The notes under the pieces: generated by a model
What the model was told of the DNA's origin: nothing
Database searches by the model: none
The model's input: only the letters and a program-made list of their open reading frames with translations
In this document: one piece after another, positions 6,662 to 19,638 of the stretch
Layout of the letters: each line of letters begins with the position of its first letter
Position numbering within the stretch: position 1 is the stretch's first letter
Virus record (IMG/VR): IMGVR_UViG_3300032116_000948
Span: 1-30,170 of that record
DNA: 30,170 nucleotides
Source: a virus
Strand: one strand, 5' to 3'
Translations under genes and position numbers: made by a program

Positions 6662-7603
6662 TTAAAAAGGCAAATCATCTTTATATGGCAGTACCTTTAC
6701 ACTAGGGTAATATTTTTCAATAGTGTCTTCTGCTGTATCAAATCCTGTCCAATCCTTTCGGAATGTAAATCTAATAGGTTCCAAGTAAGGAGTTGGGAAA
6801 CCACCACCCTCTGTATTCCTAACTTTATCTATGTAAAGATGACTAACAAATCTTTCTTGTGTATCCATGTGATATAAATTACGATGTATACACATTACAT
6901 CATCTGATTTGTTTATAAACTTGCCACCACCCTCTGTATCTGATGCCATTGGCCTAGGAACCTCACCCATCTTATCAGGCTTTAATCTTTGAGTTTCAGT
7001 TACGGTATGGCAGTTTAAAAATATGCTTATCCCTGTATTCTTACAAAATATTCTAAAGTCTTCAATAGCCTCATAGTCATATTCGTGGCTATTCATTTTA
7101 CGATCCTTTTTAAGAGAATTATAAGGATCAATAAAAACTATATCAGGATTAAAGCCAAAGTCTTGTGCAATTGCTACTTGTTCAAGTATGTCTTTGTAAG
7201 TATACTGCTTAACGTGTTTTATAAATATGCATTGCTGCCGGATAAAGTCAAAGTGTTTAGCATAATCGTGGCTTTGGAATGTAAACTGAATTAAAAGTCT
7301 AGCAAGCTGGCTTACTTTGTTTTCAGCAGAATAGATTATAATCTTTTTGTCTCTTATTAATCTGCTTAATAGATAAGTTATTAGTGTTGTCTTTCCTACG
7401 TTACTATTGCCCACTATTGTCGTTAGTTGTCCCTGTTTGTACGGACAATGCTGATCAAGTCTTTTGTGACCATATTTGGTTATTTCCCATTTGACTCCGG
7501 TTAATATTTCATTTTCGTAATCCTTTGGGTCTTCAAAATAGTCCTTACCAGCCTGAAAATCTTCTATTTTAAGCTGTTTCTTAATCTTTTCGGCAAAATT
7601 CAT
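6662..7603 (-). CDS. RecA/DnaB-like replicative ATPase (helicase-type)
   Basis: This 313-residue protein is a P-loop ATPase of the RecA/DnaB/RepA type and probably unwinds DNA or loads replication proteins. Walker A is GNSNVGKTT at residues 65-73, Walker B is DIVFIDP at 154-160, and a sensor-like strand with a polar end (FLNCHT) is at 195-200. The Gly-rich segment DTEGGGKFINKSDD at 222-235 and a later TEGGGF fit ring-helicase loops. There is no primase domain. The C-terminus is KDDLPF, like the acidic SSB tail that recruits repair proteins. It is the last gene of the leftward operon and overlaps the gene upstream of it by 23 bp. Confidence 0.88.
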   Translation of the reverse strand: MNFAEKIKKQLKIEDFQAGKDYFEDPKDYENEILTGVKWEITKYGHKRLDQHCPYKQGQLTTIVGNSNVGKTTLITYLLSRLIRDKKIIIYSAENKVSQLARLLIQFTFQSHDYAKHFDFIRQQCIFIKHVKQYTYKDILEQVAIAQDFGFNPDIVFIDPYNSLKKDRKMNSHEYDYEAIEDFRIFCKNTGISIFLNCHTVTETQRLKPDKMGEVPRPMASDTEGGGKFINKSDDVMCIHRNLYHMDTQERFVSHLYIDKVRNTEGGGFPTPYLEPIRFTFRKDWTGFDTAEDTIEKYYPSVKVLPYKDDLPF

Positions 7604-7886
7604 TCATGTAAAAGGTTAGCATCTCACTTTGTAATTCTAATTTGGCCCTCAATTGACCTTTATCAATAGCCTCATCGTATCTGATTTCAGTAAGGGTATG
7701 ATGAGTAAAATCTATTAGGTCATTAGCGACCTCATAAATCTCCGCAGAGGCAATTAAAAGGTAAATGGTATCTTCATTCACCTTTTGATAAGATAATCGT
7801 TCTACGAGCCTCTTTTGGGCCTCTAATAAGCTTTTAAGTTTGCCAGCCTTGTTCGCCCAAGATGGTAGGTCTAAATAATGGTTCAT
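7581..7886 (-). CDS. Small helical protein in replication operon, 101 aa
   Basis: The predicted protein is almost entirely helical and charged (LKSLLEAQKRLVERLSYQKVNEDTIYLLIASAEIYEVANDLIDF), with no membrane segment. It sits between the winged-helix replication protein (4-bp ATGA overlap) and the RecA-like ATPase (23-bp overlap). In many phages this position holds a helicase loader or accessory replication factor, and that role is suggested by position alone. No family is recognised. Confidence 0.75.
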   Translation of the reverse strand: MNHYLDLPSWANKAGKLKSLLEAQKRLVERLSYQKVNEDTIYLLIASAEIYEVANDLIDFTHHTLTEIRYDEAIDKGQLRAKLELQSEMLTFYMNEFCRKD

Positions 7887-8569
7887 TTGTATTGTTTTGA
7901 AACGTATAGGTTGTATGCATTGTAGATATGCATAAAATCATTGAATGGCTTGCCTAGATTTTCCAAAAGAAACTTTCTAACAAATTGTGGCCTAGCAATT
8001 ATTGACTTATTCATTTGAAATAATTGTTCCAAACCATCTTCACCCTGTATGCGGTATATGGTCTTACCAATAACCTTTGGTTGGATAGTGATAAAAAGAT
8101 CAGAATTGTTACCCAAAATTTCAATTTCTTTTACCTCAGAGGTATATATATTATCTTTTGTTATTAAACTTATATTATTATGGTTAACGTTTTCGTTGAC
8201 CCCCCCTCCCTGTTTTCGTTGACCCCCCCTTAACGTTTCCGTTGACCCCCCTCCCTGTTTTCGTTGACCCAGTTGATCCTTTACAGGATCGCTCAATGTC
8301 AATCTTCTTTGGGTAGTTTGATTGTCCAAAATTTCATCATAACGTAGCAAATAACCACTTGCAATCAATTCATGGATATGCTTAGATATGGTGTTTTCAT
8401 GTAGATTTAACATATTGCCTATATACAAGTTTGTAGCAAAGCAGTATCCTTTTTGATTGCTAAGATTGCTTATAACTCCAAAAGTCAATTTAGCTGGGGC
8501 ACTAACTTTCATATCTGTCAATAGACTAGACGGAATTACCACAAATGCACCAAACACTTTTTCTTCCAT
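7883..8569 (-). CDS. Winged-helix replication initiator-like protein with internal origin repeats
   Basis: Residues 1-85 form a helix-turn-helix/winged-helix domain (ATNLYIGNMLNLHENTISKHIHELIASGYLLRY) of the kind found in phage replisome organisers and Rep-like initiators. Residues 101-130 are a low-complexity Gly/Gln/Arg linker (GQRKQGGG occurs twice) encoded by the DNA repeats at 8189-8270. The C-terminal ~90 residues are helical (IIARPQFVRKFLLENLGKPFNDFMHIYNAYNLY). The arrangement recalls lambda O, where the origin iterons lie inside the initiator gene. The ATPase gene two positions downstream in the operon would be the helicase partner. Recognition is by fold pattern and context, not by a named family. 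Confidence 0.82.
   Translation of the reverse strand: MEEKVFGAFVVIPSSLLTDMKVSAPAKLTFGVISNLSNQKGYCFATNLYIGNMLNLHENTISKHIHELIASGYLLRYDEILDNQTTQRRLTLSDPVKDQLGQRKQGGGSTETLRGGQRKQGGGVNENVNHNNISLITKDNIYTSEVKEIEILGNNSDLFITIQPKVIGKTIYRIQGEDGLEQLFQMNKSIIARPQFVRKFLLENLGKPFNDFMHIYNAYNLYVSKQYK
8189..8270. repeat. Tandem 22-23 bp repeats inside replication gene, candidate origin
   Basis: The 14-mer GTTTTCGTTGACCC starts at 8189, 8212 and 8257, with a one-mismatch copy (GTTTCCGTTGACCC) at 8235. Spacings are 23, 23 and 22 bp. Copies alternate in what precedes them: TTAAC before copies 1 and 3, CTCCCT before copies 2 and 4, so the higher-order unit is about 45 bp. Each of the first three is followed by six or seven C. 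The spacing breaks the triplet phase, so the same DNA is read in different frames. This suggests that the DNA, not the protein, is being kept. The minus strand is G-rich, with several runs of three or more G. Confidence 0.85.
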
Positions 8570-9177: not shown

Positions 9178-9337
9178 TTTTTCCAAGCATTTTTTTCAAT
9201 CTTAATTCTAATTTAGCTTTTTCTTTTGGCGAATATAGATCACTATTTCTCCAATAACAAAGTTCACCGCTTGCCCAACGATCATCTTTTAGATAATGCA
9301 ACTCTTGCAAATAATCGTAATTCCTTATTTTAGCCAT
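9140..9337 (-). CDS. Small hypothetical protein, 65 aa
   Basis: The N-terminal half is aromatic-rich (NYDYLQELHYLKDDRWASGELCYWRNSDLY). The C-terminal half is a basic helix (KEKAKLELRLKKMLGKNG). The start overlaps the 3' end of the upstream HTH gene by 13 bp. The protein is too short for family recognition. Its compact overlapping position within an all-leftward operon supports it as a gene. Confidence 0.6.
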   Translation of the reverse strand: MAKIRNYDYLQELHYLKDDRWASGELCYWRNSDLYSPKEKAKLELRLKKMLGKNGSYRSNAGSDS

Positions 9338-9546
9338 ATCTGTTCAGGTTTTACAATGCCATTTTTTAATGCATATAAAACTAATCCCCAACGACCATTG
9401 ACACCAAGCTGCCTAGAATGCTGATAAATATAACTATGCAAGGTAGATTCATTACAATTATAGTATGCAGCCAATTCTTTAAGGGTAAGATTTGAGCAGA
9501 CCATCTTGCACACATCTTCAAATTTTTCATTATCAAAGTAACTCAT
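9325..9546 (-). CDS. Small helix-turn-helix DNA-binding protein, 73 aa
   Basis: Residues 18-45 (NLTLKELAAYYNCNESTLHSYIYQH) fit a helix-turn-helix of the resolvase/transposase (HTH_23-like) type, with the TLKELAAYY first helix and the STLHSYIY recognition helix. The remaining residues, GRWGLVLYALKNGIVKPEQIW, may form a wing or dimer contact. It could be a small early regulator and is one candidate for the protein that reads the intergenic CTAAC repeats, although nothing here proves that. It overlaps the exonuclease gene by 14 bp. Confidence 0.75.
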   Translation of the reverse strand: MSYFDNEKFEDVCKMVCSNLTLKELAAYYNCNESTLHSYIYQHSRQLGVNGRWGLVLYALKNGIVKPEQIWLK

Positions 9547-10222
9547 TTTTTAACATGGATATAATTTCCTGACATCTTGCCTCTGCCTTATGTATTTTCT
9601 TTCTCATCTCATCTTGCACAGCCTGATCAGCATCAACTTGTCTAAAAAATATCCTTTGTTCTAACGGGAGATCAAACCTATGCTCAACTTCTCCTGTGAA
9701 TGTATTAGCAAATTCTTTGGCTAAATAATATACAAGAAATCCTTTAGGAGCCTTACAAGACATCATCTGCATTTGCAATTGATAAAAGTATTGCCTTTCA
9801 ATAGGTTCATCTTCAATCATTGCTTTACGCTGACTAAAGAATGTCATAAACTGAGGGCATTTGACATCACAAACTGCCACCACATCTATACCATCATATA
9901 GTACAGCATCAGGACTAGCACCTGAAATATCATCAATAGCAAAAAACTGACGATTAGTATAAGTCCAATTTTGCTTTGTTACCTCACTCCAATATTGCAA
10001 AGCATCGGTTTCGTTCATTATTCCATGCACCATGGCCTTATTGGTATATTGCTGTCTTTCACCAGTCAATCGTTCAACAGCTTTCTCTGTTATATACGCA
10101 TCAGCAGTTTCACTCCATTTACCGGCATCTTTGTCTGCCTTGTTCCTAGGCTCAACAAATAGTTTCCATATCTCACTTGCCGTCCATTTTCCGGCCCGAT
10201 CTTGTTTCCATATATCACTCAT
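9533..10222 (-). CDS. YqaJ/lambda-type recombination exonuclease
   Basis: This 229-residue protein belongs to the PD-(D/E)XK YqaJ-like alkaline exonuclease group, which resects dsDNA ends for single-strand annealing. The motifs are in order: HGIMNETDAL (Glu71), SGASPDAVLYDG (Asp105), VCDVKCP (Asp119-x-Lys121) and YFYQLQMQM (Gln148/150). Length is normal for the group. The ERF-like annealing gene lies two genes upstream in the same operon (10403-10945), so together they form a Red-like recombination pair. The start at 10222 overlaps the upstream small membrane-protein gene by 8 bp. Confidence 0.9.
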   Translation of the reverse strand: MSDIWKQDRAGKWTASEIWKLFVEPRNKADKDAGKWSETADAYITEKAVERLTGERQQYTNKAMVHGIMNETDALQYWSEVTKQNWTYTNRQFFAIDDISGASPDAVLYDGIDVVAVCDVKCPQFMTFFSQRKAMIEDEPIERQYFYQLQMQMMSCKAPKGFLVYYLAKEFANTFTGEVEHRFDLPLEQRIFFRQVDADQAVQDEMRKKIHKAEARCQEIISMLKNELL

Positions 10223-10406
10223 CGTTTAAGGATTTAATAGTTTGAATTATTACATAATACGTTATAAACAAAAAGTTAATGACCAATAAAATTGTCAATC
10301 CAATCGTATGCTTATCAGTTAAAAAATCTCTATAAATTTCTGATGCAACAATAATGATTACAAATAAGGCCACAGCAATTGCTAATGATTTATATACATT
10401 TTTCAT
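10215..10406 (-). CDS. Small two-helix membrane protein, 63 aa
   Basis: Two hydrophobic segments, at about residues 6-23 (KSLAIAVALFVIIIVAS) and 34-56 (IGLTILLVINFLFITYYVII), indicate an inner-membrane mini-protein. The gene is wedged between the ERF-like and exonuclease genes, with 4-bp and 8-bp overlaps, so it is translated with them. Function unknown. A role in superinfection exclusion is possible but purely speculative. Confidence 0.7.
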   Translation of the reverse strand: MKNVYKSLAIAVALFVIIIVASEIYRDFLTDKHTIGLTILLVINFLFITYYVIIQTIKSLNDE

Positions 10407-10945
10407 TTAAAACTAAGCTTTTGTTGGGTAAATAATTTTCTAAGATCAGTAGATTCTTCCACAGCCTTTTTGTTTGCGGAATACAATGCGTATAATTTTT
10501 CCTCAGTATCACAGGCTTTGATGGCTGACACAAGAACATCGTTATTAGGTTTTTCGGTTACCCCGTGATCGTTTGTTCCATCCGGATCAAGGCCACCATC
10601 GTCAAGTGCTAAAAGATTCTGTAAGGCCATTTTTCCGGCATAGGATGAGGCACTTCCTGTAATCTGTGAGTCATCCATTCCTTTTTTTACCTCTGCCTCC
10701 CTTGCCCACCCACAAGCGGTATATGTTTCTTTCCCGTTACTTAAAGTGGCAGTTGATTTAATGTAGTAGCGGTTACCAATCATTACCAAATCGTCATCTA
10801 CTTTAATAAACCATCCGTGTGGATTTACTAATGGCTTAACTACCTCAAGAATAGACTCTTTATTGCGATAATGATATTTGCCAAATGAGTTGTAGTTAGA
10901 CTTTTTGGCTTTGACTGCTGACTGAATTTCTGCTAGGTTCTTCAT
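10403..10945 (-). CDS. ERF-family single-strand annealing protein
   Basis: The N-terminal ~130 residues match the ERF superfamily: the NSFGKYHYRNKESILEVVKPLV start, the beta-hairpin region VDDDLVMIGNRYYIKSTATLSNG, and the Gly/Ala-rich segment SQITGSASSYAGKMALQNLLALDDGGLDPD, which corresponds to the conserved ERF motif. Such proteins form rings on ssDNA and anneal complementary strands. The C-terminal 40 residues are helical. The partner exonuclease lies two genes downstream. The start overlaps the upstream small gene by 4 bp. Confidence 0.9.
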   Translation of the reverse strand: MKNLAEIQSAVKAKKSNYNSFGKYHYRNKESILEVVKPLVNPHGWFIKVDDDLVMIGNRYYIKSTATLSNGKETYTACGWAREAEVKKGMDDSQITGSASSYAGKMALQNLLALDDGGLDPDGTNDHGVTEKPNNDVLVSAIKACDTEEKLYALYSANKKAVEESTDLRKLFTQQKLSFK

Positions 10946-11154
10946 ATTTGATCTAATTGTGTTTCGTTTACAAAAGTTTCTACTTCTAATTGAATCTTGT
11001 TTTTGGCCTTTTCAATGACTTCTTTTAATGACTTAAATTTGTCTTCCTGATTTACAAAAGCCCTGCAAGCTACAATTTTACCATCAATGTAAGCATCCCA
11101 TATTCCACCTTGTGGACAGGATTCAACTTTGTGTTCTACAATTTTAATTTTCAT
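10942..11154 (-). CDS. Small hypothetical protein, 70 aa
   Basis: The N-terminal half looks like beta-strands (KIKIVEHKVES..GIWDAYIDGKIVACRAF), followed by an amphipathic helix (KSLKEVIEKAKNKIQLEVETFV). No motif is recognised. It overlaps the ERF-like gene by 4 bp and overlaps a short upstream frame by 11 bp. It is probably an accessory early protein. Confidence 0.68.
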   Translation of the reverse strand: MKIKIVEHKVESCPQGGIWDAYIDGKIVACRAFVNQEDKFKSLKEVIEKAKNKIQLEVETFVNETQLDQI

Positions 11155-11312: not shown

Positions 11313-11552
11313 TTAGCCGACATTAATCAATTGTTGTTGAGATAACTTGACACAAAATTCATCGTCTTGCCCGATGGCAATTTGCAAATGTCCATCTTCA
11401 CGGATCATAAGGTTATGCCATTTAAGATGAAAACGTTTGCAGATATGCAAGAAGCTATAATATGCCTCTGCATTGTCAAAATACGATTCCGTGGTTGTTT
11501 CGTCTGTGGCTAAATCTGTAATTGAGATTGTCCACATAATGTAATTGTCCAT
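11313..11552 (-). CDS. First gene of leftward early operon, hypothetical, 79 aa
   Basis: I choose the ATG at 11552 (MDNYIMWTISITDL) over the upstream ATG at 11588, because the sequence just before it, AAACCCAACT, resembles the leaders before three genes of the 17787-19382 island. The protein has two beta-rich parts around a helical centre (AEAYYSFLHICKRFHLKWHNL), and the pattern EDGHLQIAI resembles small phage proteins of unknown function. Starting at 11588 would add MFIAYIFKTNPT. It is the promoter-proximal gene of the operon. Confidence 0.68.
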   Translation of the reverse strand: MDNYIMWTISITDLATDETTTESYFDNAEAYYSFLHICKRFHLKWHNLMIREDGHLQIAIGQDDEFCVKLSQQQLINVG

Positions 11553-12401: not shown

Positions 12402-12564
12402 TGAAGAAATAGCTAAATTAAAAACAGAATTAGAAAACCATAATAAATTGGCTGCTGAACACGCTTTTCAAGCGAAAGCTAAAGAAGCTAAATTACGCAA
12501 ACTGCAAAAGCAATTGGATAAAATTAATGAGATAATCAATGAGCAATTACCGCCAGCTATATAG
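12391..12564 (+). CDS. Small coiled-coil protein, 57 aa
   Basis: ATG at 12391 opens a frame ending in TAG at 12562-12564. The product is a single charged helix, with Leu/Ala heptads in KLKTELENHNKLAAEHAF and KLRKLQKQLDKINEIINEQL. It overlaps the endolysin stop by 11 bp and the acyltransferase start by 26 bp. It has no signal or membrane segment, so it is not an obvious spanin. It may be a structural or accessory lysis factor, but function is unknown. Confidence 0.62.
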   Translation: MNINEEIAKLKTELENHNKLAAEHAFQAKAKEAKLRKLQKQLDKINEIINEQLPPAI

Positions 12565-13180
12565 TGGCCTTAAACCGAAAGAAATATCGTACTCTAAGGA
12601 GGATAATGTTCTCATTGTTCGCTCCAATAATTTTCCTGTATCTGATCCTAAAAAAGCATTTGTCGAAGCCTTAGAAGAATTTCCTGTGACCAATACATTT
12701 CATACATACAATACCGGAACTAAAGTTCATATAGATTGCATAATTGGAGATGAGGTATCCTTTGGATGTAATTGCACCATAGGTGGTGCTGGATTTGGAT
12801 ACGATAAGGATGAGAATGGTCATAACAAACGCATTCCTCATTTAGGGGATGTTGTGGTTCAGGATTATGTGACAATTCACAATTCTGTCAATATTGATCG
12901 TGGTACTACCGGATCAACAATAATTGGTAAGTATACAGCCATTGATAGTTTAGTTCATGTGGGTCATAATGCCCAAATAGGTTCTAATTGCCTTATATCT
13001 GCCGGAGCCGTTATTGGAGGATCAGCAGAAGTTGGCAATAATACATTTGTTGGATGCAATGCATTTGTGAAACAGAAAGTAAAAATTGGTAATAATTGCA
13101 CGATAGGAGCCGGAGCGGTAGTAACTAAAGATGTGCCTGATGGCGAGACTTGGGTAGGCATACCAGCTAAAAAAATATGA
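12539..13180 (+). CDS. LpxD-like hexapeptide-repeat acyltransferase
   Basis: Residues ~60-210 form a left-handed beta-helix of hexapeptide repeats ([IV]-G-x4: CIIGDEVSFGCNCTIGGAGFGY ... IGNNCTIGAGAVV). The segment GGAGFGYDKDENGH, the NIDRG motif at 118-122 and HVGHNAQIG at 140-148 match LpxD, the UDP-3-O-acylglucosamine N-acyltransferase of lipid A synthesis, and H143 fits the catalytic His. At 213 residues it is shorter than bacterial LpxD (about 340) and has only a short divergent N-terminal domain, so substrate choice may differ. It heads the auxiliary block with PIG-L, glycosyltransferase and AsnB genes. It may acylate a sugar of the host surface or of the virion. Confidence 0.85.
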   Translation: MSNYRQLYSGLKPKEISYSKEDNVLIVRSNNFPVSDPKKAFVEALEEFPVTNTFHTYNTGTKVHIDCIIGDEVSFGCNCTIGGAGFGYDKDENGHNKRIPHLGDVVVQDYVTIHNSVNIDRGTTGSTIIGKYTAIDSLVHVGHNAQIGSNCLISAGAVIGGSAEVGNNTFVGCNAFVKQKVKIGNNCTIGAGAVVTKDVPDGETWVGIPAKKI

Positions 13181-13239
13181 CATTAATCTATTTAGTACTT
13201 ATAGTATTGTTATTTTATAAAATCAACAGATATGTCTAG
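13177..13239 (+). CDS. Micro-protein with one membrane helix, 20 aa
   Basis: The ATG overlaps the acyltransferase stop (ATGA). The product is MTLIYLVLIVLLFYKINRYV: almost entirely hydrophobic, with a basic C-terminus. The length and hydrophobicity fit a single membrane helix. Its overlap with the following micro-ORF suggests a translated tandem. Chance occurrence in AT-rich DNA cannot be excluded. Confidence 0.35.
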   Translation: MTLIYLVLIVLLFYKINRYV

Positions 13240-13318
13240 TCTTGAAATTATTGCATTAGTTTACATTGTATTTTTAGTAGTTGGAACAATTTATTTAGCA
13301 TATAAAAAACACGATTAA
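13232..13318 (+). CDS. Micro-protein with one membrane helix, 28 aa
   Basis: ATG at 13232 overlaps the stop of the previous micro-ORF. The product has a short polar start (MSSLE), a hydrophobic helix (IIALVYIVFLVVGTIYLAY) and a charged tail KKHD, the layout of a single-pass N-out/C-in mini-protein. The next gene starts 13 bp after its stop. It could be a pinholin-like or membrane-anchored accessory protein, inferred from topology and from lying in the same transcript as the endolysin. Confidence 0.42.
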   Translation: MSSLEIIALVYIVFLVVGTIYLAYKKHD

Positions 13319-13331
13319 CAAACAAACGATT

Positions 13332-13544
13332 ATGGATTACATCAATGGAGTTTACATCAAGCGTAAAGAAGGTAAGTATGGTGAATATTTTGTCATCAGC
13401 TTTAAAGAAGAAGGTCTTGCATCATTGAAAGCATTACCTAACAATCAGGATGGATTTAGAGTGGTAATTGCTAGTCCACAAAAGGCTGATCCTAATAAAT
13501 TCAGCGTTAAGCCATTCATTAAAAAGGATGATGCTCCTTTCTGA
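13332..13544 (+). CDS. Small OB-fold-like protein with SSB-type C-terminal tail, 70 aa
   Basis: The first 45 residues look like a short beta-barrel or sheet (GVYIKRKEGKYGEYFVISFKEE ... DGFRVVIAS). The C-terminus is KKDDAPF, very like the acidic tip (DDxPF) of bacterial single-stranded DNA-binding proteins that recruits partners. A compact phage ssDNA-binding or SSB-mimic protein is therefore likely, though at 70 residues it is shorter than a standard OB-fold SSB. The PIG-L gene overlaps its 3' end by 17 bp. Confidence 0.7.
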   Translation: MDYINGVYIKRKEGKYGEYFVISFKEEGLASLKALPNNQDGFRVVIASPQKADPNKFSVKPFIKKDDAPF

Positions 13545-14139
13545 TAAGAAAAAGATTTTATTTATCGGTGCCCACACGGACGATGTTGAGTTGTCCTGTG
13601 GTGGCACTATTCATAAATTAATTCAAGCAGGGCATGATGTTCGTGTTTATGTATTTAGTTATGTAAATGATATGACCTTATTGCTAGAACATCAGCGTTC
13701 TATGCTAGAATTAGGGGTTGACAATTACATTCTAAATACATACGACACTAGAACAATGTCGTATTATAGACAATCATTGCTTTCTGATTTATGTGTTTAT
13801 AGGTCATCATTTCAACCTGATATTATTTTTACACACGATCCGGCAGACATTCATCAGGATCATTCAGTAGTTGGTCAAGAAACGTTAAGGGCTTTTAAAT
13901 ACACTAACATATTGAGTTATATGCACCCTTGGAATGGATCGTTTAATCCTAATTATTTTGTTAGTTTAAGCAAAGGCAATGTGGATGCTAAAATAAATGC
14001 GTGTAAGCAATATGATAGTCAATCACACAGGGCTTATATGTCAGAGGATATGATCAAGGTTAATAGTACCTACTATACAAATCAGGCACCTTATGACCAT
14101 TATTGTGAAGCTTTCAAAGTTTATTCCATCTATGACTGA
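13528..14139 (+). CDS. PIG-L/LmbE-family deacetylase
   Basis: I start at the ATG at 13528, preceded by AAAAAGG. A longer frame from 13468 would overlap the SSB-like gene by 77 bp and add residues without family character. The product has AHTDDVE at residues 15-21, the zinc-binding signature of PIG-L/LmbE N-acetylglucosamine deacetylases (AHPDDxE, here Thr for Pro), and the second metal motif HDPADIHQDHS, in which HxxH supplies another ligand. Length (203 aa) is normal. It probably removes an N-acetyl group from an amino sugar, with acyl groups perhaps added by the LpxD-like enzyme upstream. Confidence 0.88.
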   Translation: MMLLSDKKKILFIGAHTDDVELSCGGTIHKLIQAGHDVRVYVFSYVNDMTLLLEHQRSMLELGVDNYILNTYDTRTMSYYRQSLLSDLCVYRSSFQPDIIFTHDPADIHQDHSVVGQETLRAFKYTNILSYMHPWNGSFNPNYFVSLSKGNVDAKINACKQYDSQSHRAYMSEDMIKVNSTYYTNQAPYDHYCEAFKVYSIYD

Positions 14140-14647
14140 GACTAATGTAATTACAAATAATATCATCAAGTATTTAGAATACAAAGGTCATTTTGCATCT
14201 AGGATACAATCACAAGGTCAATACATTGCTAAACTTGGGAGATGGGTTAAAAGTAAAGTTAGGAGAGGGATAGGTGATATAATAGCGTGTATTGATGGTA
14301 AATTTGTAATGATAGAAGTAAAATATGGTCAAGATCGTCAAAGTATATATCAGAAGGATGTTGAAAAAGATGTCAAAAAAGCTGGTGGTGATTACTGGAT
14401 TATTAAGACATTTGGAGAATTTTTAGGTAAATATGAATCCAACCATAGTAATAGCAACGCACAAAAGAGTAGAACTGACAACTGGTTTGATCAACAACAT
14501 ATTCCAAAATCAACCACTAACAAACGTAGTGTTGGTGGTAAGCGATCACAAGGAAATAGTTCACTTTCAAAAAATAGAAAACAAACTGCTGCATATCGTA
14601 AAAGCAGAAAACAAGCCGTTAGGTCTAAAATGGCAAAAGGGAGTTGA
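14132..14647 (+). CDS. VRR-NUC nuclease with overprinted C-terminal extension
   Basis: I choose the ATG at 14132, which overlaps the PIG-L stop by 8 bp. Residues 1-100 are a VRR-NUC domain (PD-(D/E)XK fold): VRRGIGDIIACIDGK with Asp49, then MIEVK with Glu62-x-Lys64, then GGDYWIIKTF. These enzymes act as structure-specific or Holliday-junction-like nucleases. The domain ends near residue 100, exactly where the glycosyltransferase ATG (14433) lies in another frame. The next 71 residues are Ser/Lys/Arg/Gln-rich and lack family features, as expected for an extension read out of the coding frame of another gene. A lost stop codon or indel is likely. Confidence 0.82.
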   Translation: MTETNVITNNIIKYLEYKGHFASRIQSQGQYIAKLGRWVKSKVRRGIGDIIACIDGKFVMIEVKYGQDRQSIYQKDVEKDVKKAGGDYWIIKTFGEFLGKYESNHSNSNAQKSRTDNWFDQQHIPKSTTNKRSVGGKRSQGNSSLSKNRKQTAAYRKSRKQAVRSKMAKGS

Positions 14648-15080
14648 TTACGCAAGACAAATAAAGTCTAATCCTGTAATAATACTTGGTTCAGATGATG
14701 AATTAGGTAAGGATTTTGTTGTTAATGCTTGCAATAAAATAAGGGAAGGCTATCATTTTATAGGCTTAAGAAGGTTTAAAGTTAAAAGTAACAAAAAACT
14801 CTACACGATAGATTATAAGCCTGCAATGCCCATTGGTGGTGGAAGAATTTATAGTGCTAAATTATTAGATGACATTAATTGGAAATTATTTGCCCCAAAT
14901 AAAAACAGAAAGTTAGATGATGATGGCTGGAATTATACTTTAAAATCAAACAGAAAGATTCTGCTAGTTAGTGATATAGAAGGTAATGGTTTAGTCGTTA
15001 CTGCTAATAAAGGATCATGGCCTATGATGAATCCTTTTAATCCGTATCATCCAAATATTAGTGTAGTATGTGTGGAATAG
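14433..15080 (+). CDS. Glycosyltransferase, GT2/GT-A-like
   Basis: The first residues NPTIVIATHKRVELTTGLINNI fit the GT-A nucleotide-binding start, and GSDDELGKDFV with SDD at 87-89 is a DxD-like metal and sugar-nucleotide motif. GGGRIYSAKLLDDINW and NRKLDDDGWN follow at about 148-180. The same ordered elements occur in the 26318-27034 protein, so the two are paralogues. The 5' 215 bp overlap the VRR-NUC frame, and the 3' end overlaps AsnB by 13 bp. A sugar-transfer role in surface, virion or DNA modification is inferred. Confidence 0.83.
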   Translation: MNPTIVIATHKRVELTTGLINNIFQNQPLTNVVLVVSDHKEIVHFQKIENKLLHIVKAENKPLGLKWQKGVDYARQIKSNPVIILGSDDELGKDFVVNACNKIREGYHFIGLRRFKVKSNKKLYTIDYKPAMPIGGGRIYSAKLLDDINWKLFAPNKNRKLDDDGWNYTLKSNRKILLVSDIEGNGLVVTANKGSWPMMNPFNPYHPNISVVCVE

Positions 15081-16660
15081 CCGGATATGCTGGAAACGGA
15101 AAAGAATGGTTGCCAACAGCCGTTGAAAAATTAAAGCACCGTGGCCCTGATGATCAGGCAATGCTTTTTGTGGATAGTGTAGGATTTGCACATACCAGGC
15201 TTTCAATTATTGATCTTACCAAGAACGGTAGACAGCCTATTCAATCTTGGAATTATGTTCTTACCTATAATGGAGAAATATACAATTACAACGAGTTAAG
15301 AGGATATATCAATGCCTATGACGATTTAGGCAATATAACCGGCGGTAACGATGCTCATACATTCCTTGCATTTGCAGAGAAATATGGTCTTGATACTGCA
15401 TTAAATCGTAGTAATGGAATGTTTGCTTTTGGTTTATACGATAAGAACAAGAAAACAATCACTTGTGTTGTAGACCGTTTTGGTCAAAAGCCATTGTACT
15501 ATTACCAAACAGAAGATTCATTCTATTTTGCCTCCACTCCCGCAGCACTTTACAATTTAAAACAAAGGTGGAGTATTGATCATCAGGCTTTGGATCGTTA
15601 TTTCATGCTAGGTGCTTTGATGGGTGCTGATCATCTTTTGCAAGGCATAAAGAAGCTATGTGCCGGTGAAATGCTTACCTACAATGTGGAATCAAAAAAG
15701 TTAAAGGTTGAAAAATGGTATGACATAGATACGATAGCTGAAGTAAAAGATATAGAACCATTTGTTAATGATGCCATTGACGCAGTTAAGGTATCGGATG
15801 TTCCAATCAATATATTTCTTTCGGGAGGAATTGATTCTACATTAGTTGCAAGTAGATTTAAAAATACTCAAGCTGTTCATTTGCGTAGTCCTGAAGAAGG
15901 TTATGCCAATGCAGTTGCTAGTAAATACAATATCAATCTTCGTATTGTTGATCCACAAGAATATCACATTTGGCAAATCCTTACTGATTACTCAGAAAAA
16001 TCAGGTGAACCTACTATGGCTGGTGCAATACCTTGGATTACAGCTAAACACGCAAGGCAATATGGAAAGGTAGCTATTATTGCCAATGGAGCAGATGAGT
16101 TATTTTTTGGATACGATAGAATACAAGGGGATAATGATCAAGAATCTATCAAGCAAAATCATCACATGTTCCGTGGATCAATTTATCCAAAAGGATTAAT
16201 GAATGCTTACAGGCTTAAACATAATGGTAAGCCAAGCAGCAGAGTAACAGAATTATTGACCTTTGTTCAGTTTGACATTAACCGAACATTAGACTTTGCA
16301 TCCATGTGCCATGGATTAGAGGTAAGAAGCCCATTTCTAGACCATAGATTAGTTGAGGCAGCATTAAGTATACCTGAAAAGAAACATCGTTATAAGGGAA
16401 ATAAAACGCTTTTAAAGGCCATACTACATAAGCTAGGATTTGAGATGTCATTTACTGAAAGGCCCAAACAAGGCTTTAGTATGCATTACAAACCTTTAGG
16501 CTTTGAAGAAAGCAAAAAGGTATGTTATGATTGGGCACAATACAAAGGATATTTAGATGTTAAAGATAAAGTATTGAGTGGTAGAGATTTGTCATACATT
16601 CAATCTGCTTGTGTAGGATTAAATGTTTGGTATGATGTGCATAAAAATATGCTCAGATGA
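15068..16660 (+). CDS. asnB: Asparagine synthase-like glutamine amidotransferase (AsnB family)
   Basis: This 530-residue two-domain enzyme has Cys2 as the N-terminal nucleophile of the glutaminase domain (MCGIAGY), RGPDD at 25-29, HTRLSIIDL at 42-50 and NGEIYNYNEL at 68-77. The synthetase domain has the ATP pyrophosphatase loop SGGIDST at 252-258, then GADELFFGY and VRSPFLDHR. It uses glutamine nitrogen and ATP to amidate a carboxyl group. Cellular AsnB makes asparagine, but relatives in surface-polysaccharide clusters amidate sugars, which fits the adjoining glycosyltransferase and deacetylase. It overlaps the HNH gene by 4 bp. Confidence 0.92.
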   Translation: MCGIAGYAGNGKEWLPTAVEKLKHRGPDDQAMLFVDSVGFAHTRLSIIDLTKNGRQPIQSWNYVLTYNGEIYNYNELRGYINAYDDLGNITGGNDAHTFLAFAEKYGLDTALNRSNGMFAFGLYDKNKKTITCVVDRFGQKPLYYYQTEDSFYFASTPAALYNLKQRWSIDHQALDRYFMLGALMGADHLLQGIKKLCAGEMLTYNVESKKLKVEKWYDIDTIAEVKDIEPFVNDAIDAVKVSDVPINIFLSGGIDSTLVASRFKNTQAVHLRSPEEGYANAVASKYNINLRIVDPQEYHIWQILTDYSEKSGEPTMAGAIPWITAKHARQYGKVAIIANGADELFFGYDRIQGDNDQESIKQNHHMFRGSIYPKGLMNAYRLKHNGKPSSRVTELLTFVQFDINRTLDFASMCHGLEVRSPFLDHRLVEAALSIPEKKHRYKGNKTLLKAILHKLGFEMSFTERPKQGFSMHYKPLGFEESKKVCYDWAQYKGYLDVKDKVLSGRDLSYIQSACVGLNVWYDVHKNMLR

Positions 16661-16998
16661 AAGTAAGTAAGATTAAAAGACCTTGGGTTCAGGAATACAA
16701 ACAGCGTAAGTATGAACCCTTTTACCATTCCCAGCAATGGAGAAGTATAAGAAAGTCATTTATGCTAGGTTATACTACATTAGAAGATGGTAAACTAGTT
16801 CCTAATAACATTTGCATTATGTGTTATAAGGAAGGAAAAACGGTAGCAGCCAATACCATTGACCATAAGCATCGAATTAAGGATGGGGGTGATGCATTAG
16901 ACCCTAATAACCTACAAGCTTTGTGCCGATACCATCACGATCGCAAATCTTCAAGTGAAGGGCATGAAATGAAAGATAAAATGAAAAAATCAAACTGA
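16657..16998 (+). CDS. HNH endonuclease
   Basis: The 113-residue protein has CxxC at 53-56 (CIMC) and the ββα-metal core TIDHKHRIKDGGD (Asp69-His70), DPNNLQALC (Asn84/85, Cys90) and RYHHDRK (His93/94). In many HK97-type phages an HNH protein lies just upstream of the terminase genes and assists DNA cleavage at packaging. Here the 17787-19382 island separates it from the terminase. It shares a 4-bp ATGA overlap with AsnB. Confidence 0.9.
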   Translation: MKVSKIKRPWVQEYKQRKYEPFYHSQQWRSIRKSFMLGYTTLEDGKLVPNNICIMCYKEGKTVAANTIDHKHRIKDGGDALDPNNLQALCRYHHDRKSSSEGHEMKDKMKKSN

Positions 16999-17550: not shown

Positions 17551-17600
17551 CTAACGTTCGTAAGCCACCTAACGTTTGTTAGCAAACTAACGCTTGTTAG
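17551..17600 (-). repeat. Cluster 1 of CTAACRANCGTTAG-type repeats
   Basis: Three sites occur: 17551-17564 (CTAACGTTCGTAAG, one mismatch), 17569-17582 (CTAACGTTTGTTAG) and 17587-17600 (CTAACGCTTGTTAG). Read on the minus strand they are CTTACGAACGTTAG, CTAACAAACGTTAG and CTAACAAGCGTTAG. They face opposite to cluster 2 at 19541-19638. Centre-to-centre spacing is 18 bp. Sites of this kind are typical protein-binding operators. Confidence 0.8.
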
Positions 17601-17786: not shown

Positions 17787-17972
17787 CTACTGAACAAAAA
17801 CAAGGTCTAAAGCTTTCCGAAATTCGTTTACATCAATAAGGACAGAGGAATAAAGGCGATTTAGTTTTTTTATCTGTTCAATCTTGGCCCGCTGTTTTTG
17901 ATCTTGTGGCAGTTGTCCGATTGCCCTGATTTTTAGGCAAAGGATCGCAAAAAATTTGTCGTTGTCGTTCAT
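17787..17972 (-). CDS. Island gene 5: small helical protein, 61 aa
   Basis: I start at ATG 17972 (MNDNDKFFAILCLKI), preceded by AAATCCAAAACA, a variant of the leader before the other island genes. The frame from 18011 would add MVQLCHVLTKSKT without that leader. The product is helical and basic (QDQKQRAKIEQIKKLNRLYSSVLIDVNEFRKALDLV) with no membrane segment. It is followed after 5 bp by a terminator. Function unknown. Confidence 0.68.
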   Translation of the reverse strand: MNDNDKFFAILCLKIRAIGQLPQDQKQRAKIEQIKKLNRLYSSVLIDVNEFRKALDLVFVQ

Positions 17973-18043
17973 TGTTTTGGATTTGGTTAATACGTGGCAC
18001 AATTGCACCACGTTTCGGACATTTAGTCCTCATCAGTCAACCT

Positions 18044-18235
18044 TTATTTATCCTTCCACTTTTCTATTATTACATCATTTGTAGAATTATCAAAGTAATA
18101 AACAAAGCCCGCAAAACTCACATAAAGACAACCGGAAGCAATGCCAATGGTTTGACGTTGTTTTGTTTTGATCTTAAATACTTTTTCAGGCATATTCAAA
18201 ATAATGCCTGAATGATTTTTTTTATTCTTTTTCAT
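18044..18235 (-). CDS. Island gene 4: small basic protein, 63 aa
   Basis: I start at ATG 18235, with AAAATAAAACC just upstream. The alternative at 18259 overlaps the previous gene by 14 bp and adds MRTTKNKT. The product starts Lys-rich (MKKNKKNHSG), then has strands (VFKIKTKQRQTIGIASGCLYVSFAGFVYYF) and an acidic/basic tail. It may be a small beta-sheet protein. No family recognised. Confidence 0.62.
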   Translation of the reverse strand: MKKNKKNHSGIILNMPEKVFKIKTKQRQTIGIASGCLYVSFAGFVYYFDNSTNDVIIEKWKDK

Positions 18236-18245
18236 GGTTTTATTT

Positions 18246-18686
18246 TTAGTTGTTCTCATTAAGTTTTAAATAACCTTTTGCAATCATTGCGGAAATGTAT
18301 TCAAATTCATGGCTGTAATCTTCCCAAATCCAAAACAATTCACAGCAAAAAAATAGCTGATAATTTTTAAAGGGATAGTCCACAAATGCGCACCATAAAT
18401 TCAAATTCCAATTTTCTTTTTTGAATTTTTCCCTGTGTTCAGGTGTGAAATTGTTTATTTCAAATTGTAGTAAATTTTTCAAAGCATTTTTAAACCTTAT
18501 TATCCTGTTGGATTCTGATTTAAAATCATCGTCTGATTTTGTGCCGGTTTTGATCTTAAATGATTTATGAACCTTTTTAACTGATCTATCTAACTCGTTG
18601 ATCAAATCGTTGTAAATTTTTCGATCTCTTTTTGAAAGAGTGCGGAAAGCATTTTTAAAGCCTTCCAATCCTGTTAATTGTTTCAT
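18246..18686 (-). CDS. Island gene 3: hypothetical protein, 146 aa
   Basis: The N-terminal ~60 residues are basic and helical (FKNAFRTLSKRDRKIYNDLINELDRSVKKVHKSFK). The C-terminal half is rich in Trp, Phe and Tyr (NWNLNLWCAFVDYPFKNYQLFFCCELFWIWEDY). There is no clean membrane helix. The start ATG follows AAACCCAAAACC. It is the largest protein of the island and the best candidate for its effector, but I do not recognise a family. Confidence 0.72.
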   Translation of the reverse strand: MKQLTGLEGFKNAFRTLSKRDRKIYNDLINELDRSVKKVHKSFKIKTGTKSDDDFKSESNRIIRFKNALKNLLQFEINNFTPEHREKFKKENWNLNLWCAFVDYPFKNYQLFFCCELFWIWEDYSHEFEYISAMIAKGYLKLNENN

Positions 18687-18704
18687 GGTTTTGGGTTTAA
18701 TAGT

Positions 18705-18947
18705 TTAAAATACTTTTTTAGTTAATCTTTTGAGGTTGTAGCCTTGTGAGGTTAAAAAATTGTAAACGGGCAAAATATCGCCAACCTTTGCAACTTCGCT
18801 CATTGTTAAATAGTCAACGGAACAAACGGAATGCCCGCCAATGAATGCGAAGCAGTCAAACCAGTTGCCCTTTTTTGAATCGGGAAAAACTGCAAGCACG
18901 TCCCTAGTTGATCCCTCGTAAATAAAAATTACTCTTGTCTGTTTCAT
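18705..18947 (-). CDS. Island gene 2: hypothetical protein, 80 aa
   Basis: The short alpha/beta protein starts MKQTRVIFIYEGSTRDVLAVFPD and contains FDCFAFIGGHSVCSVDYLTMSE. The arrangement strand-turn-strand, then a GGHSVCS loop, then a helix with LPVYNFLTSQGYNL suggests a compact globular domain. I recognise similar small proteins in Bacteroidota mobile elements only in general terms, with no known function. The start follows AAACCCAAAACA. The gap to the next island gene is 18 bp. Confidence 0.72.
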   Translation of the reverse strand: MKQTRVIFIYEGSTRDVLAVFPDSKKGNWFDCFAFIGGHSVCSVDYLTMSEVAKVGDILPVYNFLTSQGYNLKRLTKKVF

Positions 18948-18971
18948 TGTTTTGGGTTTAATTCTTGTTAA

Positions 18972-19382
18972 TTAAATAATCCAGTTTTCACCGTTTCCGC
19001 TTTCTACTTCTTCAGTCCATTGCTGGATAGCATCTAAAGCGTTGAAAATGTGCCTACGTTCCGGATCGCTTGCCATTTCTATAAATACGCTCAAACGTTC
19101 TTCATATTCTTGGCCATTTTCCATATTAGTATAACTTACAAAAACGTGGTCTAGTGTTAAACCGCAATTAATCGGCATATATAAGGTAAACGAATAATCC
19201 TCGCACAACAAATATGTATATCCGCTGGTATTGTTTACGGCTATGCATCCATAGGAATCAGCGTATTCAATTCCTATTTCTTCAGCCACTTGCATCAAAT
19301 ACAGTGCTTTTTGCCGTTCCCATTGGCACATAGTGCCTAGTGCTGAAAAATCAAATGATGAATTGTTTGGTAAATTTTTCAT
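18972..19382 (-). CDS. Island gene 1: hypothetical protein, 136 aa
   Basis: The protein is acidic, without membrane segments, and contains ALGTMCQWERQKALYLMQVAEEIGIEYADSYGCIAVNN, then a strand-rich middle, and the C-terminus HIFNALDAIQQWTEEVES. It is the promoter-proximal gene of the leftward island, which has a TATATTTG-type -7 box at 19429-19436. The start is preceded by A-rich sequence (GAACAAAAAACACT). Function unknown. Confidence 0.72.
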   Translation of the reverse strand: MKNLPNNSSFDFSALGTMCQWERQKALYLMQVAEEIGIEYADSYGCIAVNNTSGYTYLLCEDYSFTLYMPINCGLTLDHVFVSYTNMENGQEYEERLSVFIEMASDPERRHIFNALDAIQQWTEEVESGNGENWII

Positions 19383-19540: not shown

Positions 19541-19638
19541 ACTAACGAACGTTAGTTAATATAAACTAACAACGGATCGCATTAACTAACAAACGTTAAT
19601 TAGTATAAACTAACAATCGTTAGGCTAACGAACGTTAG
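19541..19638 (+). repeat. Cluster 2 of CTAACRANCGTTAG-type repeats
   Basis: The sites are 19541-19556 (ACTAACGAACGTTAGT, 7-bp arms around AA), 19586-19599 (CTAACAAACGTTAA), 19610-19623 (CTAACAATCGTTAG) and 19625-19638 (CTAACGAACGTTAG). A half-site CTAACAACG starts at 19566. The motif matches cluster 1 in reverse orientation. The direct repeats TATAAACTAACAA at 19560 and 19604 add a 44-bp periodicity. Tight phasing near a promoter fits multi-operator binding. Confidence 0.82.

Follow-up and report, generated by a model that had tools for sequence, protein, structure and literature searches.

Replication origins formed by iterons inside the initiator gene are already known from phages lambda, TP901-1 and Tuc2009, from RepA_N plasmids and, with an HTH_36 domain, from plasmid pPR9. 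In lambda, four iterons occupy the middle of gene O, with annotated spacings of 20, 24 and 23 bp (lambda record) that place them in more than one reading frame; each is a dyad with an A-run at its centre. Lambdoid origins lie inside gene O, with an AT-rich tract beside inverted-repeat iterons (PMC7466680). ORF13 of TP901-1 and the Rep protein of Tuc2009 (Rep2009) bind direct repeats within their own genes, which constitute the origin (PMC8965321). In RepA_N plasmids such as pSK41, the winged-helix N-terminus of the initiator binds four Rep boxes located centrally in rep, and the linker encoded by the origin is dispensable (PMC5703833). The pfam13730 (HTH_36) domain of pPR9, a plasmid that replicates autonomously, has been exchanged together with the origin region (PMC5703833).

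We analysed a 30,170-bp stretch of viral DNA, record IMGVR_UViG_3300032116_000948 (hereafter the window). Its minus strand encodes a 228-residue replication initiator at 7883–8569, and the segment 8140–8270 within this gene is very probably a theta origin, at which iterons would be bound, an AT-rich tract opened and a helicase loaded. This reading draws on the sequence and on analogy with the systems above.

The iterons are copies of a 14-bp unit, GTTTTCGTTGACCC, which occurs four times in the window, once with a single mismatch. In coding order, they lie on the minus strand at 8257–8270 (iteron 1), 8235–8248 (iteron 2), 8212–8225 (iteron 3) and 8189–8202 (iteron 4, adjoining the AT-rich tract). 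The coding-strand unit is GGGTCAACGAAAAC, as in iteron 1; iteron 2 reads GGGTCAACGGAAAC and is the mismatched copy (GTTTCCGTTGACCC against GTTTTCGTTGACCC). Start-to-start distances are 23, 23 and 22 bp in window coordinates, or 22, 23 and 23 bp in coding order, confirming the positions and spacing reported in the first-pass annotation. The two-unit alternation described there is likewise visible in the flanks, which run A, B, A, B from iteron 1 to iteron 4 (TTAACG on the units starting at 8184 and 8230, TCCCTG on those starting at 8207 and 8252). All four occurrences of the core CGTTGACCC in the 30,170-bp record fall within the array, and it was not found on the opposite strand. When we counted pairs of 14-mers with at most one mismatch and 18–27 bp apart, the window contained 19, 13 of them inside the array, while 30 dinucleotide shuffles of the window contained 0 or 1. 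The array is thus real and non-random.

The units are read in frames 2, 0, 2 and 1 in coding order, giving the peptides GQRKQ (units 1 and 3), STETL (unit 2) and VNENV (unit 4). The four copies therefore occupy three frames, with two sharing one because 22 + 23 = 45 bp is in frame. The earlier description of the repeats as encoding different peptides holds to the extent of these three frames, but not for units 1 and 3, which share GQRKQ.

The protein that carries the array comprises a winged-helix (HTH_36) N-terminal domain, a low-complexity linker and a small C-terminal domain. It matches HTH_36 (PF13730) at 34.7 bits, above the curated cut-off of 25, over residues 26–74 (8348–8494, minus strand), the likely DNA-binding part. 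Several initiator phrogs match as well, among them phrog_19658, 'replication initiation protein' (6.4e-12), so that the repeats do lie within a winged-helix replication gene, as first proposed. In a structure model, mean pLDDT exceeds 90 over residues 11–90 and falls below 50 over residues 96–148, a linker predicted to be disordered (8126–8284, minus strand). Within the DNA for this linker lie the iteron array and the greater part of the AT-rich tract; selection for binding could therefore act on the array DNA almost irrespective of the peptide. The best fold matches of the model are 4pql, 4pt7 and 5kbj, which we take to be RepA_N plasmid initiators, all weak (E about 2e-3 to 1e-2). The family naming is also found in PMC5703833. 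The similarity to RepA_N is one of fold (E 1.9e-3), the RepA_N domain being absent from the Pfam matches. The same Pfam search detected neither a DnaB_2 nor a Rep_Org_C C-terminal domain, and PF04492 (Phage_rep_O) gave no match up to E 0.1. A PDB sequence search returned no significant match, and a search of bacterial genomes no relative.

Directly beside iteron 4, and downstream of the array on the coding strand, lies an AT-rich tract (8140–8188), a candidate DNA unwinding element on the basis of its A+T content and nearest-neighbour energies. A+T content reaches 82% over 8140–8189. By nearest-neighbour energies, the 50-bp segment from 8143 ranks within the window's least stable 0.06% and is the fourth least stable distinct segment. 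The GC-skew inflection near 8200 that had been suggested as a check is not supported. Cumulative skew has its maximum at 6670 and its minimum at 11401; both positions bound the minus-strand gene block, so that these extremes mark gene-strand switches instead. The slope does change near 8.0–8.2 kb, but in the direction opposite to that expected of a bidirectional origin.

The comparison with lambda O made in the first-pass annotation is borne out by the in-gene iterons, their 20–24-bp spacings and the adjoining AT-rich tract common to both. By contrast, the window protein falls outside PF04492, its iteron sequence is unrelated, and the phage encodes a DnaB-like helicase but no recognizable P-type loader. 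By analogy, we infer that the protein may work like lambda O while lying outside the lambda O family. The N-terminus of TP901-1 Rep is HTH_36-like, as in the window protein, although it scores 24.5 bits, just below the cut-off of 25. The DnaB_2 or Rep_Org_C C-terminal domains of the TP901-1 and Tuc2009 proteins have no counterpart in the window protein, and their repeats showed no clean 22–24-bp ladder in our scan. RepA_N systems and pPR9 are plasmid replicons with a different C-terminal domain, and the fold match to the window protein is weak. Closer in layout are five named-phage initiators, from Fusobacterium phage Funu2, Lactobacillus phage PMBT4, Staphylococcus phage 85, Acinetobacter phage D2SVT and Cellulophaga phage phi39:1. 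All have HTH_36 and in-gene repeats at the same place and spacing, and most of their arrays are followed by an AT-rich stretch; they differ from the window gene in iteron sequence and C-terminal part and have 2–4 copies.

We then compared homologous initiator genes, the check proposed for the claim of selection at the DNA level. The set of 62 genes comprised the window gene, 8 named-phage initiators and 53 dereplicated IMG/VR relatives, the distinct ones among the best 80 of 510 confirmed matches in viral contigs. For each gene, 100 versions were generated by permuting codons among positions with the same residue, thereby keeping protein and codon use, and repeats were scored as 13-mer pairs with at most one mismatch, 18–27 bp apart. 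Direct repeats in this range, almost all at 22–24 bp, were present in the same linker in 57 of the 62 genes, and overlap about codons 85–150 in practically every gene that has them. In 55 of 62 genes, the observed pair count was reached in no more than 5 of 100 shuffles, bearing in mind that the relatives share ancestry and that the shuffle models only part of the constraints on an AT-rich linker. The window gene has 17 pairs, compared with a mean of 0.0 in its shuffles.

Across the 62 genes, spacings pile up sharply at 22, 23 and 24 bp and again at 45 bp, with almost no repeats at 19–20 or 25–29 bp. A spacing of 22 bp was found in 29 genes against 0.8 in shuffles, 23 bp in 31 against 1.2 and 24 bp in 27 against 8.1. 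The in-frame distances of 24 and 45 bp also arise in shuffles, where a repeated peptide preserves some of the DNA repeat, whereas the out-of-frame spacings of 22 and 23 bp almost never do. At a looser threshold, which admits a few weak arrays, 50 of 62 genes have an array in more than one frame. Both the iteron motif and the encoded peptides vary between phages while the array persists, and among the genes compared we found no relative that keeps the peptide but has lost the repeat. The claim of DNA-level selection is thus supported: repeats occur in most genes, exceed protein-preserving shuffles and keep to 22–24 bp regardless of frame. These comparisons favour the view that, across the family, the array is maintained at the DNA level and not for its peptide, and the survey shows putative in-gene iterons to be near-universal in sampled HTH_36 phage initiators. 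The motif itself, as judged from the contigs searched, is phage-specific: two copies of CGTTGACCC 8–20 bp apart occurred in 53 stretches of viral contigs, most of them in unrelated sequence, and no initiator relative was encoded in any.

Among HTH_36 initiators, 45 of 75 pairs of consecutive spacings total 45 bp, where the single spacings would predict 22.9, a figure inflated by common ancestry. Arrays therefore tend to leave the frame and regain it every second unit. Differences of 15 residues (45 bp) exist between some relatives. Between lambda and the lambda-like Shiga-toxin phages, the difference amounts to two iterons and 13 residues (PMC7466680), which is an in-frame two-unit step as well. 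A general duplication of two-unit blocks was considered and rejected: in 46 genes, next-but-one copies were as alike as neighbours (0.738 against 0.732), and the alternation of units in the window is therefore not a family rule. We consider it an evenly balanced proposition that, group-wide, the genes of HTH_36 phage initiators contain the sites that their own proteins bind, at spacings of 22–24 bp whose successive pairs tend to 45 bp.

Two of the four window units have an inverted-repeat build, each with one mismatch. These imperfect dyads are TCAACG-gaaa-CGTTAA over iteron 2 (8230–8245) and TCAACG-aaaa-CGTTAA over iteron 4 (8184–8199); the type-A units have one good arm only. Across the linkers of the family, perfect dyads with 6-bp arms number 132, compared with 33 ± 5 in shuffles, and their commonest centre is AAAA. 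Examples are TTAACA-aaaa-TGTTAA (PMBT4) and CGGACA-aaaa-TGTCCG (relative L110). The iterons in the lambda record resemble these dyads in build.

The collections searched contained one close relative, IMGVR_UViG_3300045541_000080 (39,085 bp), which is 96–98% identical to the window over the replication region; no named phage was matched when 25 kb of the window were compared by megablast. Both contig ends of this relative (L005 and L006) lie inside the iteron array, and its genome is therefore probably circular or circularly permuted, the ends probably reflecting an assembly break at the C-rich repeats. The two initiator genes differ at 5 of 653 comparable bases. All three differences outside the array are silent and both inside it change the peptide, one of them at a contig end, a pattern that fits DNA-level selection in counts too few for a test. 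One difference, at 8244, changes the peptide (S109L) and makes the dyad of unit 2 perfect in the relative.

Elsewhere in the window, a 14-bp palindrome, CTAACNNNNGTTAG, is clustered in non-coding DNA, with three copies at 17551–17600 and four at 19542–19638. It has 16 matches in the window against 4.3 expected, and the clusters flank a leftward gene block (17787–19382); those of the relative lie at 9234–9303 and 10869–11020. The clusters are probably operators of some regulator. Other genes include a YqaJ exonuclease near an ERF annealing protein, a recombination pair (9533–10945), and a cargo-like group at 12539–16998 encoding a hexapeptide acyltransferase, a PIG-L deacetylase and an asparagine synthase of the glutamine-hydrolysing type, which may together modify sugars or nucleotides. 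An HNH endonuclease gene follows just after this group.

Other readings of the array were weighed against an origin. The repeats could be initiator sites that mainly repress the initiator's own operon, with the origin elsewhere, for example in the palindrome-rich DNA at 17.3–17.6 or 19.5–19.6 kb. The excess of CTAACNNNNGTTAG palindromes, clustered in the relative too, speaks for such a site, as does the instability of the palindrome-rich intergenic DNA at 17.3–17.6 kb, with 17315 among the least stable segments. However, the array lies ~300 bp inside the initiator gene and not at a promoter, the palindromes sit on both sides of a leftward block of small genes in operator-like fashion, and in characterized relatives in-gene repeats are the origin; we regard repression as the main role as improbable. 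The array might instead belong to the protein, as a repetitive flexible linker in which repeated residues or slippage gave rise to the DNA repeats; this would suit those relatives that combine an in-frame spacing of 24 bp with repeated peptides, TPIDEK for example. Protein-keeping synonymous shuffles nevertheless lose the repeats, both in the window gene and in 55 of 62 genes at the 5% level, the window units are read in three frames, and the change in unit 2 of the relative alters the peptide while perfecting the dyad, leaving this explanation very improbable.

The first-pass annotation had also raised a quadruplex on the G-rich strand, and three runs of 6–7 G on the coding strand invite the idea that this strand acts through such a structure. 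No canonical motif (G3+, loops of 1–7 nt) was found on either strand; a version exists if loops of up to 12 nt are allowed. Most sampled relatives have no comparable G-runs between their repeats, and the runs are therefore not a family feature. We give a quadruplex mechanism hardly any credence.

For the origin reading, we infer protein binding, strand opening, helicase loading and origin activity as follows. The HTH_36 winged-helix domain of the 7883–8569 protein would bind the four iterons, ~two helical turns apart, and the resulting nucleoprotein complex would open the AT-rich tract on the downstream side of the array. The DnaB-like helicase, a RecA-fold ATPase encoded at 6662–7603 on the minus strand (PF03796, 37.3 bits; phrog_18375 'DNA primase/helicase', 2.8e-31), would then be loaded at the opened tract, perhaps aided by the C-terminal domain of the initiator or by a 101-residue protein encoded between the two genes (7581–7886, minus strand). 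The latter matches no family above cut-off and is guessed to be a helicase loader from its position only. The order of initiator, then DnaB-like helicase, is also found in Cellulophaga phage phi39:1, Acetoanaerobium phage ANDSL2_ph1 and Fusobacterium phage Funu2.

The analysis thus places a probable replication origin in an uncultured phage that has no close named relative. Since in-gene iterons are near-universal in the sampled HTH_36 initiators, origins may be predictable in metagenomic phages. Each of these genes seems to contain the sites that its protein targets, which would provide many matched protein–target pairs for work on DNA recognition. If the group-wide rule is true, each HTH_36 gene would be a self-labelled protein–DNA pair, and sequence alone would suffice to read the family's recognition code.
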